Of a stretch of 53,461 nt of DNA, positions 19,628 to 44,866 are shown piece after piece (position 1 is the first letter of the stretch; every line of letters begins with the position of its first letter). Position numbers and translations under genes: made by a program. The notes under the pieces are model-generated. The model worked only from the letters and a program-made list of their open reading frames with translations, was not told where the DNA came from and did not search any database. Source of the stretch: Bacteroidaceae bacterium (lineage in GTDB: Bacteria > Bacteroidota > Bacteroidia > Bacteroidales > Bacteroidaceae); contig JAFUFW010000030.1 in assembly GCA_017469685.1 (NCBI GenBank), positions 1 to 53,461 on the forward strand. The letters are read 5' to 3'.

Positions 19628-19764
19628 TTTCTTGTTTTGTTTGAAGTTATACATTAAAAAGTAATTACTGTCCGCGCAGTTCTGCTCGTCAGCACACACG
19701 AAGGGGGCACAAAGGTCGTTGGCTTTGTCCTTTCGCCTTACCTCGAGGCTTCGGAGCTTGCTCT

Positions 19765-19931
19765 GTGTGCGGCAGGTCTTCTGACTCGTTCCCGGACTTG
19801 GCACCTTCCCGGCGCAGAAGCGCCAGTGGCTATGTGTCGCCAGTCCGACGACGGAACTCACAGCAGCGGGACTGTGCAGGACTCTCACCTGCTTCCCTCT
19901 TAGCGCCCCACGCAGGGGGCGAACCGCACGA
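19765..19931 (-). promoter_or_regulatory. Cobalamin riboswitch (aptamer)
   Basis: Reverse-strand RNA with the conserved core: closing stem P1 from CCGCAC (19772-19767) with GTGCGG (19929-19924), the 'AAGAGGGAAGCAGGTGAGAG' region, 'CACAGTCCCGCTGCTGTGA', the B12 box AGCCACTGG (19832-19824) and 'GGGAAGGTG...AGAAGACCTGCC' at the 3' side. It is followed by a leader of about 135 nt before the DUF4465 ATG, with no U-tract terminator, so control is probably at translation or by mRNA decay. Confidence 0.95.
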
Positions 19932-19951
19932 GCTATGTTTGTTTTCGGCTG

Positions 19952-39043: not shown

Positions 39044-39817
39044 TTACTGAATATTCTGGCGGATGTGGGTGAGATAGGCGGTCATGGCCTCCTCATCGCG
39101 CTCGTCGATAATCTGCAGAAGTCGCTTCAGCTCGGTGCGAATGCCTTCAACCTTGGGTTTGGTGTGGGGGTTGAACAGGATTTCGCGCAGCAGGGTGTCG
39201 TCCTCCGAGAGGACGCCGCGGGCAATCTTCATGTGGCGCTTGAAGGTGGTGCCTGGGGTGTCCTGGTGCTTCATCAGGGCTGAAAAGACAAAGGTGCTGA
39301 CGAAGGGGATTGAGAGTGCGTAGGCCATCGTCTCGTCGTGCTCGGCAAAGGAGAGCTCCTTCACGTTGAGCCCGAGGCGAGTGTATAGGTCGCGGAAGAA
39401 AATGCGGCCCATGTAATCGCCCTCGCTGATGATGATGGCATTCTCGCGCGAGAGGTCGCCGAGGTTGGCGAAGGTGGGGCCGAACATGGGGTGCGACGAG
39501 GCATAGCGGCGCCCCGCCTGCTCGTAGTACTCGCGGAAACCGGTCTTCACGCTGCTGATGTCGGCGAGGATACAGTCCTTGCCTACGTGAGGCAGAAGCT
39601 CGTCGAAGACCTGAAGAGTGTACTTAAGCGATACGGCGTTGATGGTCAGTTCGGGGTCGAAGGCGTCGACTTCGGCAAGCGAGGTGAAACGCTGTGTGTT
39701 GTAGAGGAAGCGCAGGCGGCGGGGGTCATTGTCATAGACTGCCACTTCGTGGTCGAAGCTCAGCAGGTCTGTGAAGAACGAGCCCATCTTGCCGGCGCCG
39801 AGAATTAATATACGCAT
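39044..39817 (-). CDS. tyrA: Prephenate dehydrogenase
   Basis: 257-aa TyrA: oxidises prephenate to 4-hydroxyphenylpyruvate, towards tyrosine. Rossmann motif 'ILGAGKMGSFFTDLL' at 4-18, 'DISSVKTGFREYY' and 'SSHPMFGPTF' (substrate His) around 105-130. No ACT or chorismate mutase part; the mutase is on the neighbouring DAHP synthase. Last gene of the attenuated Phe/Tyr operon, 8 nt after it. Confidence 0.92.
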   Translation of the reverse strand: MRILILGAGKMGSFFTDLLSFDHEVAVYDNDPRRLRFLYNTQRFTSLAEVDAFDPELTINAVSLKYTLQVFDELLPHVGKDCILADISSVKTGFREYYEQAGRRYASSHPMFGPTFANLGDLSRENAIIISEGDYMGRIFFRDLYTRLGLNVKELSFAEHDETMAYALSIPFVSTFVFSALMKHQDTPGTTFKRHMKIARGVLSEDDTLLREILFNPHTKPKVEGIRTELKRLLQIIDERDEEAMTAYLTHIRQNIQ

Positions 39818-39825
39818 AGGCTGAC

Positions 39826-40899
39826 TTATTTATTCATTATCTCCAGCTGCTGGCGGACGCTTTCTTCGTGTATGTGTTCGTAGATATCGCGCACGAAATC
39901 GGAGCTCATGCCGCAGAGCGAGCCTTGTGTGGCGCGCTTGTCGAGGATTTCGCTGTAGCGTGTGGTCTGCACAACGGTCATATTGTGCAGCTTCTTGTAC
40001 TCGGCAATCTCGCGGCTGATGCGCATGCGCTTGGTCAGAAGGTCCATCAGGTTGTTGTCGAGCTCGTCAATCTGCTTGCGCAGCTGGCTGATGCTCTCTG
40101 TAACTTCAACTTCGTCGCGCACTACGAGGCGGTCGAGGATGAAGTCGAGCACCTCAGGCAGCACCTGCTGCTTAGCATCGCTCCAGGCACAGTCGGGGTT
40201 GCAGTGGCTCTCTATCATGAGGCCGTCCATACCGAGGTCCATGGCTTGTTGTGCAATGGGCGCGATGAGGTCGCGGCGCCCTCCCATGTGGCTCGGGTCG
40301 GTGATGATGGGGAGGGCCGGGAAGCGGCGCTTCAGCTCTATGGGCAGATGCCACATAGGCGGGTTGCGGTAGATCTTCTGGTCGACGCTTGAGAAGCCTC
40401 GGTGGATGGCGCCCAGACGGCGGATGCCGGCATTGTTGATGCGCAGGAGCGCACCTGTCCACAGCTCAATGTCGGGATTGACGGGGTTCTTGACAAACAC
40501 GGGCACATCAACGCCCTGCAGGGCATCGGCTATAGCTTGCACCGAGAAGGGGTTGGCACTGGTGCGGGCGCCCACCCATAGAATGTCAACGCCGGCAGCG
40601 AGGGCTGCCTCAACATGCTCGGGCGTTGCCACCTCGGTGGCCGTGAGCATGCCCGTCTCGGCTTTTACGCGCTGCAGCCATGGAAGGGCCTCTACGCCCT
40701 TGCCCTCAAAGCCGCCAGGCTTCGTGCGTGGCTTCCACACTCCTGCGCGGAAAATCTTAATACCATTCGTGGCCAGCTGCCGGGCAGTGTCCATCACTTG
40801 CTCCTCAGTCTCAGCCGAACAGGGGCCTGCAATGACCAGCGGGCGCTTACGTTCTATGCCGGGGAGATCTAATTGCTGTAGTTCTAAATCTAATTCCAT
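39826..40899 (-). CDS. Bifunctional DAHP synthase/chorismate mutase
   Basis: 357 aa. Residues about 1-255 are a type Ibeta DAHP synthase ('VIAGPCSAET', 'RAGVWKPRTKPGGFEG', 'TDPSHMGGRRDLI'), the first step of the shikimate pathway. Residues about 265-357 are an AroQ-type chorismate mutase ('LRKQIDELDNNLMDLLTKRM'), which makes prephenate. The mutase domain at the C-terminus is the usual Bacteroidetes layout and often serves feedback control by prephenate or chorismate. It follows the aminotransferase by 7 nt. Confidence 0.95.
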   Translation of the reverse strand: MELDLELQQLDLPGIERKRPLVIAGPCSAETEEQVMDTARQLATNGIKIFRAGVWKPRTKPGGFEGKGVEALPWLQRVKAETGMLTATEVATPEHVEAALAAGVDILWVGARTSANPFSVQAIADALQGVDVPVFVKNPVNPDIELWTGALLRINNAGIRRLGAIHRGFSSVDQKIYRNPPMWHLPIELKRRFPALPIITDPSHMGGRRDLIAPIAQQAMDLGMDGLMIESHCNPDCAWSDAKQQVLPEVLDFILDRLVVRDEVEVTESISQLRKQIDELDNNLMDLLTKRMRISREIAEYKKLHNMTVVQTTRYSEILDKRATQGSLCGMSSDFVRDIYEHIHEESVRQQLEIMNK

Positions 40900-40906
40900 A
40901 GTATGT

Positions 40907-42124
40907 CTATTTAAAAATTGCTTTTATCCGTTCCAGTGCCTCACGCATCTTCTCGTCGTTAGCGCAGAGGGAGATGCGGATATAGCGGTTGCCGTTGGAA
41001 CCGAAGATGAAGCCTGGCGTGATGAAGACCCGGGCCTCGTGGAGCACGCGCTCGGTGAGCTCCTCAACGTCGGCATAGCTGTCGGGGATGCGCCCCCAGA
41101 GGAACATGCCCGTCTGCGAGGGGTCGAAGGTGCAACCGAGTGTGGTCATAATCTCCTCTGCGATGGCGCGCCGGTTGGCGTAGGTTCGCACATTGGCCTC
41201 GAGGTGCCATTCCTCGGTGTTGTTCGTCAGCGCCTCGGCCGCTGCCAGTTGCAGGGCGCGGAAGGTGCCGCTGTCGATGTTGGTCTTCACCTTGAGTATC
41301 CAAGAGATGAATTCAGCGTTGGTGCAGAGCATGCCTACTCGCCAGCCTGGCATATTGAAGCTTTTCGACATCGAGTTGAACTCAATGCAACAGTCCTTGG
41401 CACCGGGAATCTGAAGTATGGAGAGGAGAGCAGGCTCCCCCTCTTTACAGGAGAGTGGGGTGGGGGATGACCCCGGCCTGATAAAGCTATACGGATTGTC
41501 GTTGACTACGACGATGCCGTGCTTTTTAGCGAAGGCTACGAGGCGCTCGTAGGTCTCGCGGCGAGCTGGCGCGCCGGTCGGCATGTGGGGGTAGTTGGTC
41601 CACATGAGCTTGACGCGCGAGAGGTCCATGCGTTCCAGCTGCTCGAAGTCGGGCTGCCAGCCGCCGCCCTCAGTGAGGTCGTAGCTCACAACTTCGGCAC
41701 CAAGCAGGCGGGAGAGCGCTGTATAGGTGGGGTAGCCAGGGTCGGGCACCAGCACTTGGTCGCCCGGGTTGACGAAAGCGAGTGTGACGTGGAGTATGCC
41801 TTCCTTGGAGCCTATGAGCGGCTGAATCTCGGTGGAGGGATTGAGGTCCACTCCATACCAGCGGCGATAGAAGGCAGCTATGGCCTCGCGTAGCTCAGGA
41901 GTGCCTATGGTAGGCTGATAGCCGTGTCCGTCAGCCTTGGCAGCTTCGCGGCAGAGCGTGTCGATAGTCTGCTGGCTGGGGGGCATGTCGGGGCTGCCGA
42001 TGGCGAGCGAGATGATTCCGTGTCCTTCGGCATTCAGCCGGGCCACCTCCTTGAGCTTGCGGCTGAAATAGTACTCTTGAACGGAGGCGAGGCGCTCTGC
42101 CGGCTTAAACAAATTCTTTTCCAT
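40907..42124 (-). CDS. PLP-dependent class I/II aminotransferase (aromatic/LL-DAP type)
   Basis: 405-aa fold-type I aminotransferase with 'NSMSKSFNMPGWRVGM' (PLP Lys in SKSFN, about residue 239). Sequence style is that of LL-DAP and aromatic aminotransferases; between pheA and tyrA the likely substrates are phenylpyruvate and 4-hydroxyphenylpyruvate. It overlaps pheA by 20 nt. Between 'NDNPYSFI' and 'LLSILQIPG' there is an extra loop of about 15 residues ('RPGSSPTPLSCKEGEPA') encoded by a C-rich/G-rich near-palindrome; this appears to be a translated repeat insertion next to the active-site Tyr loop. Confidence 0.88.
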   Translation of the reverse strand: MEKNLFKPAERLASVQEYYFSRKLKEVARLNAEGHGIISLAIGSPDMPPSQQTIDTLCREAAKADGHGYQPTIGTPELREAIAAFYRRWYGVDLNPSTEIQPLIGSKEGILHVTLAFVNPGDQVLVPDPGYPTYTALSRLLGAEVVSYDLTEGGGWQPDFEQLERMDLSRVKLMWTNYPHMPTGAPARRETYERLVAFAKKHGIVVVNDNPYSFIRPGSSPTPLSCKEGEPALLSILQIPGAKDCCIEFNSMSKSFNMPGWRVGMLCTNAEFISWILKVKTNIDSGTFRALQLAAAEALTNNTEEWHLEANVRTYANRRAIAEEIMTTLGCTFDPSQTGMFLWGRIPDSYADVEELTERVLHEARVFITPGFIFGSNGNRYIRISLCANDEKMREALERIKAIFK

Positions 42125-42947
42125 TCTTGTATTCTCCCAAAATCTTTAAGTCGGACGTGAGCGGACGTATGGCGTCAATGCCTTGAGTGTAGCGGGTGTA
42201 GTCGCGGTACATGATGTCGACATAAAACAGGTATTCCCATTCGCGCCCTATGATGGGCAACGACTGTATCTTGGTGAGGTTGAGCTTGTAGAACGAGAGC
42301 ACAGAAAGCACCTGTGAGAGGGAACCTTCCTCGTGGGGGAGGGCAAAGACGATGCTGGCTTTGTCGGTCTGCAAAATATTGCGGAGAAGGTTGGCACGTG
42401 AGGGCTGCGAGAGCACCAGAAAGCGCGTGAAGTTGTGCTTGTTGGTCTCGATGCCTTCCTCCAGCACCTTCATGCCGTAGATAGGTGCGGCATCCTTCGA
42501 GCAGATGGCAGCCAGGCCGCGGGCTTTGCTGCGGCTGATGTCGGCAGCAGCGCCAGCCGTGTCCTCGGCCTCCACTACTTTGATGTGTGGGTGCCGGCTG
42601 AGGAAGTCGCGGCACTGCATGAGGGCCACAGGATGGGAATGAACCTCGCGTATGTCGGCCAGACTGTCGTCGGGGTGGCAGACGAGAGAGTGCTTGATGC
42701 GCAGTTTGTGCTCGCCCACGATGGTGACGGGCGACTCACGCATCAGCTCGTAGTTGTGGAGCAGCGAGCCTGCTATGGTGTTCTCAATGGCGGCCAAGCC
42801 TATCATGGTCTGGTCGGTAGCCAACTCGCCGAAGAGCTGCTCGAAGGTCTGGCAGCATACGAGCTCGACGTCCTCTCCCTCGAAATACTGGTGGGCAGCG
42901 ATGTCGTGGAAGCTGCCTTCAATGCCTTGTATTGCGATGCGTTTCAT
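42105..42947 (-). CDS. pheA: Prephenate dehydratase
   Basis: 280 aa: makes phenylpyruvate from prephenate. PDT domain about 1-180 ('IAIQGIEGSFHDIAA', 'AAIENTIAGSLLHNYELM', the essential TRF in 'NKHNFTRFLVL') and an ACT domain about 195-270 ('FALPHEEGSLSQVLSVLSFYKLNLTKIQSLP') for feedback by Phe. No chorismate mutase domain. It is the first structural gene after the leader-peptide attenuator. Confidence 0.95.
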   Translation of the reverse strand: MKRIAIQGIEGSFHDIAAHQYFEGEDVELVCCQTFEQLFGELATDQTMIGLAAIENTIAGSLLHNYELMRESPVTIVGEHKLRIKHSLVCHPDDSLADIREVHSHPVALMQCRDFLSRHPHIKVVEAEDTAGAAADISRSKARGLAAICSKDAAPIYGMKVLEEGIETNKHNFTRFLVLSQPSRANLLRNILQTDKASIVFALPHEEGSLSQVLSVLSFYKLNLTKIQSLPIIGREWEYLFYVDIMYRDYTRYTQGIDAIRPLTSDLKILGEYKNGKEFV

Positions 42948-43002: not shown

Positions 43003-43035
43003 AAAAAATCCCGCTTCCTCTCAGAAGCGGGATTT
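43003..43035 (-). terminator. Attenuator terminator in the pheA leader
   Basis: Perfect 12-bp stem AAATCCCGCTTC (43035-43024) with GAAGCGGGATTT (43017-43006), loop TGAGAG, followed by TTTGT. It lies 55 nt before the pheA ATG on the same strand, so it would stop transcription before the gene unless prevented by the antiterminator at 43096-43104. Confidence 0.9.
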
Positions 43036-43095
43036 GTATGTTAAGCTTTTATGTTTTCAATTCTCAATTATGCAATCTTAAACTGACACGCTCAC

Positions 43096-43104
43096 TCCCG
43101 CTTC
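43096..43104 (-). promoter_or_regulatory. Antiterminator strand overlapping the leader-peptide stop
   Basis: GAAGCGGGA, identical to the 3' arm and complementary to TCCCGCTTC in the 5' arm of the attenuator. It begins inside the leader stop codon, so a ribosome at the stop covers it while one stalled on the Phe/Tyr codons leaves it free. Confidence 0.8.
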
Positions 43105-43165
43105 ACCTTGACTTGGTAAAGTAAAAATAGACGTAGGAGTAGTAACGTGCGCTGACGCTATTCAT
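43103..43165 (-). CDS. Phe/Tyr-rich leader peptide of the pheA operon
   Basis: 20-codon ORF, MNSVSARYYSYVYFYFTKSR, with five Tyr and two Phe codons in nine consecutive residues. It starts about 18 nt after the predicted transcription start, is followed directly by the antiterminator and terminator, and precedes the Phe/Tyr biosynthesis operon. It is a classic leader whose translation measures charged tRNA-Phe/Tyr. A longer upstream open frame is read-through beyond the promoter and is not supported. Not in the usual lists of attenuators I know for Bacteroidetes. Confidence 0.85.
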   Translation of the reverse strand: MNSVSARYYSYVYFYFTKSR

Positions 43166-43189
43166 GACTGCTTTGTATTGTTCCGGCTG

Positions 43190-43220
43190 CAAAAGTATGT
43201 GTTTTTTTTCTGCCGGCCAA
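43190..43220 (-). promoter_or_regulatory. Promoter of the pheA operon
   Basis: -7 box TACTTTTG (43197-43190) with TTG at 43220-43218, 20 nt apart. The predicted start is about 18 nt upstream of the leader ATG. Confidence 0.8.
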
Positions 43221-43236
43221 CTTTTTTCTGTATTTT

Positions 43237-43269
43237 TTGCGTTTTTGTTAGCCTTTTGATGTAACTTTG
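43237..43269 (+). promoter_or_regulatory. Promoter of the L,D-transpeptidase gene
   Basis: TTG at 43237-43239, 22 nt spacer, TAACTTTG at 43262-43269. The transcript would start near 43276, which argues against the most upstream in-frame ATG (43274). Confidence 0.65.
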
Positions 43270-43318
43270 TCTCGTGGAAGATATACTTATGCCAAAAATG
43301 ACAATGCTCATGTCTTGC

Positions 43319-44866
43319 ATGAAACACCTCTTTCGCCTTGCACATGTCGGTGCGCTGGTGGGCGCTCTCTGCCTCTCGTCGTGCGGCGAGGGCTGGCGCG
43401 GCTCTTCCGAGGCCGATCTTTCTGAGTTCGGAACCTTCGTCTATGCGATAGACACACTCCAGATGGAGCGGGCACTGACTGACATCCTCTCAAAAGATAC
43501 TTCCCACTTTGCCGCCGACAAGGCTGTGCGTCAACGCTACACCGACGTGGAGAGCTTCGGGCTGGCGCCGCTGTGGTTCACGCGGAAGGGGTTAGCCCCT
43601 GAGGCCGACGAACTGCTCGCTTGCCTGCGCCGAGAGGCACCGCGTTGCGGGCTCGACACTGCTGCTTTCTTCGTGCCTCAGATTGCGAGAGACCTCTTCG
43701 TCGTGCATAAACTGGCATTCGACTCGCTCGGTATCAATATCAACGAGCTACTGCCGCGGCTCGACTACAACCTCTCGCGGGCCTACGTCCGCTATGCTAC
43801 TGGACAGCGATATGGATTCATGCGTCCGGCAAAGGTGTTCAACAACCTTGACCTCAAGACACAAGGCGACGGCTACGCCCGCCTGTTCGACGAGCAGGTG
43901 AAAGAGCCTGACTACGATGCCTCGATGCGCCAGCTGCTATCTGCTGATCGTATGAGCTTCATCCATAGTGCCGTGCCCGACACGCCCTTGTTCAAAACCC
44001 TGCAGAGCAGGCTGAATGCCGCTACTGACACGGATGAAAAGCGAAAGATAGCTGTGAACCTTGAGAGAGCACGCTGGCAGATGAAGCGCCCAGACGAGAA
44101 TAGCCTGGTGCTCGTCAATCTGCCGTCGCAGCAGTTGTGGGCCATTGCCAGGGACTCGTTTCTGAACATGCGCGTCTGTTATGGCTCAAGACTCACAAAG
44201 ACGCCATTGCTCCATAGCGCCATCAGCACCATCGATGTCAACCCCGACTGGATAATCCCTCAGTCGATAGTCAAGAATGAGATTGCCCGCCACGGAGGCG
44301 ACTCATCTTACTTTGCCCGCCACCGCTACTATATCGCTGAGCGCTCGTCGGGCGCACGACTTAACCCGCGTGGCGTAAGTGTTGAGATGCTTGAATCGGG
44401 ACGTTTGCGTGTAGGCCAAAGCGGCGGGATAGGCAACTCGCTCGGCCGCATCGTGTTCCGTTTTCCCAATGATTTTGCCGTATATCTCCACGACACTAAC
44501 AACCGCAGCGCGTTCACCAACGAGCGCCGTTCGCTCTCTCATGGCTGTGTGCGTGTAGAGAAGCCTTTCGACCTGGCCTGTTTCCTGATGCCAGATGCGG
44601 ACGAGTGGACCATCGACCGCTTGCGCATCTCAATTGACAAGACACCGACTACCGAGCGCGGACGGAACTATCTGGCGGAACATGCCGACAGCGAACGGCC
44701 GCTGCGACTCATGCGTCAGCAGGGCGTATCGCCTCGTATGCCCGTGTACATTATTTATTATACGGCTTATCCCAACCCAATCTCGGGCGAAGTGGAATTG
44801 TGGCCCGATGTGTATGGCTACGATAAGGTCATAGCCCGTGAGCTGGGGGCGTTCCTGATGAATTAA
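43319..44866 (+). CDS. L,D-transpeptidase (YcbB/ErfK type) lipoprotein
   Basis: 515 aa from the ATG at 43319, which gives a lipoprotein signal (ALCLSSC); upstream in-frame ATGs at 43274, 43289, 43298, 43304 and 43310 are possible but less likely given the promoter. An N-terminal scaffold with 'LPRLDYNLSRAYVRYATG' and a PG-binding region precede the YkuD catalytic domain (about 255-470). The active site is SHGCVR with Cys410, and 'YLHDTNN' comes before it. It makes 3-3 peptidoglycan crosslinks or attaches proteins to the wall. Size and layout match E. coli YcbB (LdtD). Confidence 0.9.
   Translation: MKHLFRLAHVGALVGALCLSSCGEGWRGSSEADLSEFGTFVYAIDTLQMERALTDILSKDTSHFAADKAVRQRYTDVESFGLAPLWFTRKGLAPEADELLACLRREAPRCGLDTAAFFVPQIARDLFVVHKLAFDSLGININELLPRLDYNLSRAYVRYATGQRYGFMRPAKVFNNLDLKTQGDGYARLFDEQVKEPDYDASMRQLLSADRMSFIHSAVPDTPLFKTLQSRLNAATDTDEKRKIAVNLERARWQMKRPDENSLVLVNLPSQQLWAIARDSFLNMRVCYGSRLTKTPLLHSAISTIDVNPDWIIPQSIVKNEIARHGGDSSYFARHRYYIAERSSGARLNPRGVSVEMLESGRLRVGQSGGIGNSLGRIVFRFPNDFAVYLHDTNNRSAFTNERRSLSHGCVRVEKPFDLACFLMPDADEWTIDRLRISIDKTPTTERGRNYLAEHADSERPLRLMRQQGVSPRMPVYIIYYTAYPNPISGEVELWPDVYGYDKVIARELGAFLMN

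Follow-up and report, generated by a model that had tools for sequence, protein, structure and literature searches.

A well-described system of this type is the pheL-pheA attenuator of Escherichia coli, in which a leader open reading frame (ORF) with Phe codons and a terminator lie before pheA and the leader RNA can adopt an alternative pairing. In the thr (Thr/Ile) and ilv attenuators of Proteobacteria, one leader senses several amino acids. As for Bacteroidetes and Chlorobi, attenuators have reportedly been predicted in earlier work (by Vitreschak in 2004 and by Lopatovskaya in 2010), and the RNA motif called Bacteroid-trp is linked to trp attenuation. The relevant passages of a 2010 paper (PMC2864571) list this motif (RF01692) as one of Bacteroidetes. 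Moreover, sections of a 2021 study of the Flavobacterium transcriptome (PMC9723704) present strong clues to leader-peptide attenuation before amino-acid operons of Flavobacterium psychrophilum, naming a pheA and a hisG element that are conserved in Flavobacteriaceae and have no Rfam hit. Short ORFs in long leaders of Bacteroides thetaiotaomicron, reminiscent of leader peptides, are also described in part of another report (PMC7366714). The preliminary description of the DNA considered here, made from its sequence, knew of no established case of such regulation in Bacteroidetes; in view of the clues for pheA and hisG and of Bacteroid-trp in the sections of PMC9723704 and PMC2864571 cited above, this statement was too strong. 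No experiment that puts attenuation to the test in a member of the Bacteroidetes was found in the portions of the literature searched.

The DNA under study (hereafter the window, that is, the whole stretch of 53,461 nucleotides from a Bacteroidaceae bacterium that was analysed) carries on its minus strand an operon made of pheA, coding for prephenate dehydratase (42105..42947; Pfam PF00800, PDT), a class I/II aminotransferase gene (40907..42124; PF00155, Aminotran_1_2), a gene for a DAHP synthase fused to chorismate mutase (39826..40899; PF00793, DAHP_synth_1, and PF01817, CM_2) and a tyrA-like prephenate dehydrogenase gene (39044..39817; PF02153, PDH_N). All four names given to these genes in the preliminary description are thus backed by Pfam. 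Judging from the sequence, we consider it very likely, with a probability of about 0.92, that the pheA leader functions as a ribosome-mediated transcription attenuator of the trp/phe/his type, sensing charged tRNA-Phe and tRNA-Tyr. It has in common with E. coli pheL-pheA the plan of a leader ORF with Phe codons, a terminator and an alternative pairing, whereas the sequence is unrelated, Tyr and Phe codons are mixed in front of an operon that also makes tyrosine, the antiterminator starts in the leader stop codon, and relatives mostly lack Shine-Dalgarno-like motifs. The thr and ilv attenuators are alike in sensing more than one amino acid and differ in the amino acids sensed, here the Phe/Tyr pair, and in the phylum. 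Bacteroid-trp is likewise a candidate structured RNA of Bacteroidetes, although by its name it concerns a different amino acid. As far as the consulted sections of PMC9723704 describe it, the pheA element of F. psychrophilum comes from the same phylum, is also proposed to work by leader-peptide attenuation and lacks an Rfam hit, and it may well be the same element as that of the window; those sections concern Flavobacteriaceae and a single transcriptome, whereas the present analysis covers an order and its class and adds covariation, split operons and tandem units. The attenuator is ordinary in mechanism, and what is notable is its breadth, the matching of Phe/Tyr sensing to operon content and a repeated tandem design.

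All the elements of the leader lie on the minus strand. A promoter-like motif, TTG-N20-TACTTTTG, occupies 43190..43220 (TTG at 43220-43218, TACTTTTG at 43197-43190); we take TTTG and TAnnTTTG to represent the Bacteroides-type promoter motif, and transcription would start at about 43184. A divergent L,D-transpeptidase gene (YkuD, PF03734) spans 43274-44866, with its listed start about 50 nt from this motif. The predicted leader ORF (43103..43165; ATG at 43165, stop TGA at 43105-43103) has 20 codons and encodes MNSVSARYYSYVYFYFTKSR, with five Tyr and two Phe. Its frame is open further upstream, up to an ATG at 43345, giving an 80-codon ORF (43103-43345) that crosses the promoter-like motif; the 20-codon start therefore rests on the position of the promoter and on the relatives. 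The 80-codon version might be the one picked by a gene caller. Segment 2, the antiterminator GAAGCGGGA (43096..43104), has as its first base the G of the leader stop TGA. Further downstream, an intrinsic terminator (43003..43035) consists of a hairpin of 13 bp (43035-43006) with a GAGA loop, followed by a U run. Segment 3, TCCCGCTTC (43024..43032), is common to antiterminator and terminator: it lies in the 5' arm of the hairpin and is perfectly complementary to GAAGCGGGA, which recurs as segment 4 (43009..43017) in the 3' arm. Promoter, leader ORF, antiterminator, terminator and complementarity had all been pointed out in the preliminary description, and each agrees with the sequence letter for letter; the hairpin, there called a perfect 12-bp terminator, is present with 12 Watson-Crick pairs and one G-U pair. 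As a whole, the 184-nt leader folds at -52.9 kcal/mol, compared with a mean of -36.5 for dinucleotide shuffles (z -4.8), and is more stable than 200 out of 200 of them.

The fold of the window leader contains, in addition, a 1:2 stem that was absent from the preliminary description and in which 43150-43135 pairs with 43099-43086. Specifically, segment 1 (43135..43150) comprises the bases ahead of the Tyr codons and the first of these codons, and its 3' partner in the ribosome-free fold (43086..43099) overlaps the end of segment 2. With this stem, the scheme of 1:2, 2:3 and 3:4 pairings is therefore complete. Over all the loci of the comparison described below, the mean 1:2 energy is -12.9 for own partners versus -9.2 (sd 0.20) for swapped ones. 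Locus by locus the signal is weaker than that of 2:3: in only 71 of 167 loci do no more than 2 of 50 shuffles equal the native stem; the stem of the window, equalled by 4 of its 50 shuffles, hence falls outside these 71.

The position of the ribosome on the leader was simulated by constrained folding of the window leader RNA extended to just past segment 3, the ribosome being placed by its A site. All nine 2:3 pairs form when the A site is at codons 8, 9, 11, 13, 14, 15 or 16, eight of them form at codon 17, and none forms with the A site at the stop codon; when no ribosome is present, the 1:2 stem is formed and there are no 2:3 pairs. Across the loci compared, the distance from the final Phe/Tyr codon to the start of segment 2 is 7-14 nt in 150 of 167 (range 3-20), and the leader stop falls within -6 to +30 nt of that start in 153 of 167, which would place segment 2 under a terminating ribosome. 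Codons for the operon's own products, an intrinsic terminator and mutually exclusive 2:3 and 3:4 pairings are all found in this leader, a combination that points to the attenuator class. The proposed course of events would be as follows. RNA polymerase would start at about 43184 and a ribosome would enter the leader. With Phe or Tyr scarce, the ribosome would stall in the Tyr/Phe codons and cover segment 1, leaving segment 2 free to capture segment 3 once this is transcribed; 3:4 would then be blocked and the pheA operon read. With both amino acids plentiful, a ribosome reaching the stop codon would cover segment 2, the 3:4 hairpin would form and transcription would end at about 43003. If no ribosome were engaged, 1:2 would sequester segment 2 and the terminator would again form. 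We infer, in this scheme, translation of the leader, stalling, dependence on the amino acids and a timing that lets 2:3 beat the more stable 3:4. In fact, when segment 4 is included in the folding, 3:4 belongs to the minimum-energy state at every ribosome position tested, and antitermination must therefore be kinetic, i.e., decided during transcription. In classical attenuators, 3:4 is likewise favoured at equilibrium. If the scheme is true and holds across the class, ribosome and RNA polymerase would have to move in step there, tightly enough that 2:3 is in place before segment 4 has been made, and the element would offer a handle on the coordination of transcription and translation in Bacteroidetes, a subject that the preliminary description called less studied.

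Two sets of relatives were examined. The close set comprises PheA loci from 80 genomes plus the window, mostly rumen and gut Bacteroidaceae, Prevotellaceae and other Bacteroidales, with genera including Paraprevotella, Prevotella, Marseilla, Phocaeicola and Alloprevotella; the distant set comprises 120 regions upstream of pheA (119 usable) from genomes of the order and class, the sampling being restricted to genomes with a PheA match (63 of 148 and 72 of 247 in two scans). An ORF with at least six Phe/Tyr in 10 residues, located within 450-500 nt upstream, was counted as an F/Y leader. Of the 81 close loci (window counted), 76 have such a leader before pheA, as do 94 of 119 order and class loci; the control rates are 11 in 360 dinucleotide shuffles and 8 in 120 reverse strands. 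At this threshold, none was found in 25 of the 119 order and class loci, including all eight examined of one family group (f124), and in the other classes of the phylum F/Y leaders are rare (3 of 20 pheA loci: L206, L210 and L218). Of the 167 loci analysed below, 135 have a TAnnTTTG motif no more than 90 nt before the leader ATG, versus 6 of 167 after one shuffle each, and a Shine-Dalgarno-like motif is present ahead of the leader start in 6 of 167 only.

The pairing of the segments was analysed in 167 loci with a terminator out of 170 leader-bearing ones, three being dropped. Terminators were located by a folding-based search, as a search for bulge-free hairpins missed several Prevotella loci; a hairpin of -8 kcal/mol or lower with a U run was found in 167 of 170 loci, a raw count taken independently of any shuffle control. 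The mean energy of the 2:3 duplex over the 167 loci is -17.7 kcal/mol, compared with -9.3 (sd 3.0) with shuffled tails; 121 loci beat all 50 of their shuffles and 145 are equalled by at most two. Among the 167 loci there are 116 distinct 2:3 helices, for example GAAGCGGGA/TCCCGCTTC, AAGGTGAGGC/GCCTCACCTT and ATGAGAACTTC/GGAGTTCTCAT. In the strongest test, partners were exchanged among the 91 loci with neither CCCGCT nor CCCGTTT (the core sequences found in relatives of the window) in their terminator arm: own 2:3 pairing reaches -16.2 versus -10.5 (sd 0.30) for swapped partners, the lowest of 2000 permutations being -11.6. Moreover, in an alignment of 57 close loci (A2), 2:3 cells are paired in 87.5% of cases versus 38-54% when slid by 1-3 columns, and double-sided changes occur at six of nine 2:3 pairs, a value attained by none of 500 shuffles. 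In the same alignment, the count of additional 2:3 pair types does not exceed the shuffle level (231 of 500 shuffles reach it), and sliding the structure by -1 gives a 2:3 covariation score equal to that of the structure itself (0.115 and 0.113). The 3:4 pairing exceeds shuffles on all measures, with 91.5% of cells paired and double-sided changes at 8 of 12 pairs (0 of 500 shuffles as high). Comparison of related Bacteroidales for the leader ORF and for the antiterminator pairing had been proposed in the preliminary description, and both turn out to be conserved; its reading of the locus as a Phe/Tyr attenuator is strengthened by this conservation of the F/Y leader, by the covariation of 2:3 and 3:4 and by the states obtained in constrained folding.

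The same data bear on a simpler proposal, namely that the hairpin merely terminates transcription constitutively, or marks where a small RNA ends, the F/Y ORF next to it being incidental. This would agree with 3:4 being the most stable structure in equilibrium folding whatever the position of the ribosome, and with the 22 of 167 loci that have no clear 2:3 match (at least 3 of 50 shuffles as good), which show no clear 2:3 excess over shuffles; nevertheless, F/Y ORFs occur far above chance and segment 2 co-varies with segment 3, and together with the operon data reported below this makes the proposal very improbable.

Segment 2 is read in all three frames of the leader (65, 57 and 41 of 163 distinct leaders), coinciding with stop codon and antiterminator in the window, with Val-Lys-Arg-Glu in L012 and with Cys-Glu-Ala-Gly in L060. 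It follows that the RNA has been kept and the peptide end has not. This variability of the peptide ends among relatives, with segment 2 in any of the three frames, argues against an additional role in trans as far as the end of the peptide, and only the peptide, is concerned. An activity in trans of leader RNA or peptide, like that of rnTrpL/peTrpL of Sinorhizobium, for which the part of PMC7298713 considered offers a precedent, would be favoured by the short leader RNA expected when the amino acids abound; on balance we regard it as unlikely to a high degree. The spacer separating segments 2 and 3 shows little conservation, even in close relatives. In three loci (L073, L010 and L036), ATTGAA-like repeat units are found between segments 2 and 3 and beyond, with many downstream copies in L073.

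Rearrangements of the operon provide natural experiments. Five close loci have no leader near pheA. In one of them (L048), the leader is further upstream, ahead of an inserted gene; in the other four (L003, L004, L017 and L026), leader, antiterminator and terminator are found in the same genome before the aminotransferase gene (4 of 4). Where pheA is separated from the other operon genes, the attenuator stays with the latter. In L026, a promoter-like TTGGC...TTACTTTG (L026:2950-3001) stands directly 5' of pheA with no leader, the attenuator being before the aminotransferase gene (L240), and this pheA looks like a case of natural leader loss. Codon content was compared with operon content in 42 loci with downstream sequence. 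Four of them have pheA with no aminotransferase, DAHP synthase or tyrA gene nearby, and the Tyr codons before segment 2 number 0, 0, 0 and 1, their leaders carrying Phe codons; each of the remaining 38 has at least one Tyr codon (at least two in 36, exactly one in 2), so that the association between at most one Tyr codon and a lone pheA has a Fisher p of 1.3e-4. A second attenuator with Tyr codons was found in all three of these four genomes that the search covered (the fourth being G092): its leader is MNNTFGYYAFYYYFFYNN before tyrA-DAHP synthase in G015, MIKNISVFAYFYYYFYFSKK before aminotransferase-DAHP synthase-tyrA in G025 and MAPVHTYYAWSFFFFYFQNKRGHAV before tyrA in G035. The codon content of the leader, therefore, follows the content of the operon. 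Both this tracking and the persistence of the leader with the operon remainder when pheA is apart speak against the F/Y ORF being incidental to a constitutive terminator. A different proposal is that stalling controls translation of pheA rather than its transcription. Such translational attenuation could be imagined from the hairpin lying 6-60 nt from pheA in many of the loci listed, yet the chosen hairpins end in terminator-type U runs, the distance is 220 nt in L007 and 282 nt in L043, therefore too far to hide the pheA start, and in four genomes the hairpin also precedes the aminotransferase gene; we accordingly give it very little credence. Under transcription attenuation, split operons, relocated pheA genes and tandem units make the logic of codon sensing testable.

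A comparison with known RNA families was also carried out. In the pheA leader region no Rfam family, T-box included, reaches its gathering score: Phe_leader (RF01859) gives 15.0 bits and Thr_leader (RF00506) 25.7 bits, each versus a gathering score of 55, and Trp_leader gives 23.2 bits versus 41. Bacteroid-trp (RF01692; gathering score 49 bits) has no match in the window or in the genome it belongs to; among 60 genomes of the order, four have a match, three of these above the cut-off. The whole window is likewise free of T-box matches at gathering score. Elsewhere in the window, a cobalamin riboswitch is present on the minus strand (19754-19943; 113.6 bits). The possibility that a metabolite or a tRNA binds the leader RNA directly, as in a riboswitch or a T-box, is suggested by the class of genes, which is the one that T-boxes of Firmicutes typically regulate; given that no Rfam family scores at gathering level and that the spacer between segments 2 and 3 varies so much among close relatives, it appears scarcely credible. 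The Phe/Tyr attenuator would thus represent a testable regulatory element distributed across an order and its class and with no match in Rfam.

As a control with a different amino acid, the region upstream of hisG was searched for His leaders (at least four His in 10 residues), which were found at 40 of 57 class and order loci (L319-L376), 39 of them with a terminator. As for specificity, His leaders occur at 1 of 119 pheA loci and F/Y leaders at 3 of 57 hisG loci. The His leaders have an own 2:3 energy of -12.4 versus -9.65 (sd 0.41) for swapped partners, and taken individually 20 of 39 are supported at the level of 5 in 100 shuffles. The hisG gene of the window's own genome has no His leader at this threshold, and a scan of that genome for runs of His codons gave 59 matches and was uninformative. 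With a covariance model built on the close loci (R1), 48 of 61 family genomes and 23 of 40 order genomes have a match at E 0.01, figures that drop to 43 of 61 and 11 of 40 when E must be 1e-5 or lower. Eleven weaker matches, not initially connected with pheA, comprise four true F/Y attenuators (two in L274, one each in L275 and L276; E 1.3e-4 to 6.1e-4) and seven that are not (L269-L273, L277 and L278; E 9.7e-5 to 0.007), and matches weaker than about E 1e-5 therefore decide nothing. It is probable, on the whole, that leader-peptide attenuation is a common form of Phe/Tyr (and His) control throughout Bacteroidia, the class being deduced from the named relatives, mostly in the absence of a Shine-Dalgarno motif and repeatedly doubled in series.

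The doubling is found directly before pheA, where two Phe/Tyr attenuators in series occur in 13 of 202 upstream regions, belonging to 11 family groups, with the units 10-61 nt apart (L083, L089, L093, L119, L125, L127, L130, L136, L139, L150, L172, L189 and L274). Twelve of these come from the distant set, none from the close set (450 nt each), and L274 through a match of the covariance model. The scan had flagged 16 of the 202 regions; L084, L157 and L160 were rejected as tandem loci because their upstream tract has no terminator, and L275 runs into the end of its contig. If the attenuation model is true, such a two-gate design should sharpen the response. A TAnnTTTG motif precedes the first unit in 7 of 13 loci and the second in 0 of 13. 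Every unit comes with a terminator, and most units with an antiterminator that matches it: 2:3 pairing is not clearly above shuffles in the second unit of L127, L130, L150 and L189 (8, 31, 23 and 31 of 100 as good) and in the first unit of L274 and L136 (6 and 5 of 100). In L130 and L189, the terminator of the first unit is a better partner for the second tail than that of the second unit. When the energies of both units are added up, pairing of each tail with the terminator of its own unit is stronger than crossed pairing in 13 of 13 loci, with a mean per unit of -15.2 versus -9.6.
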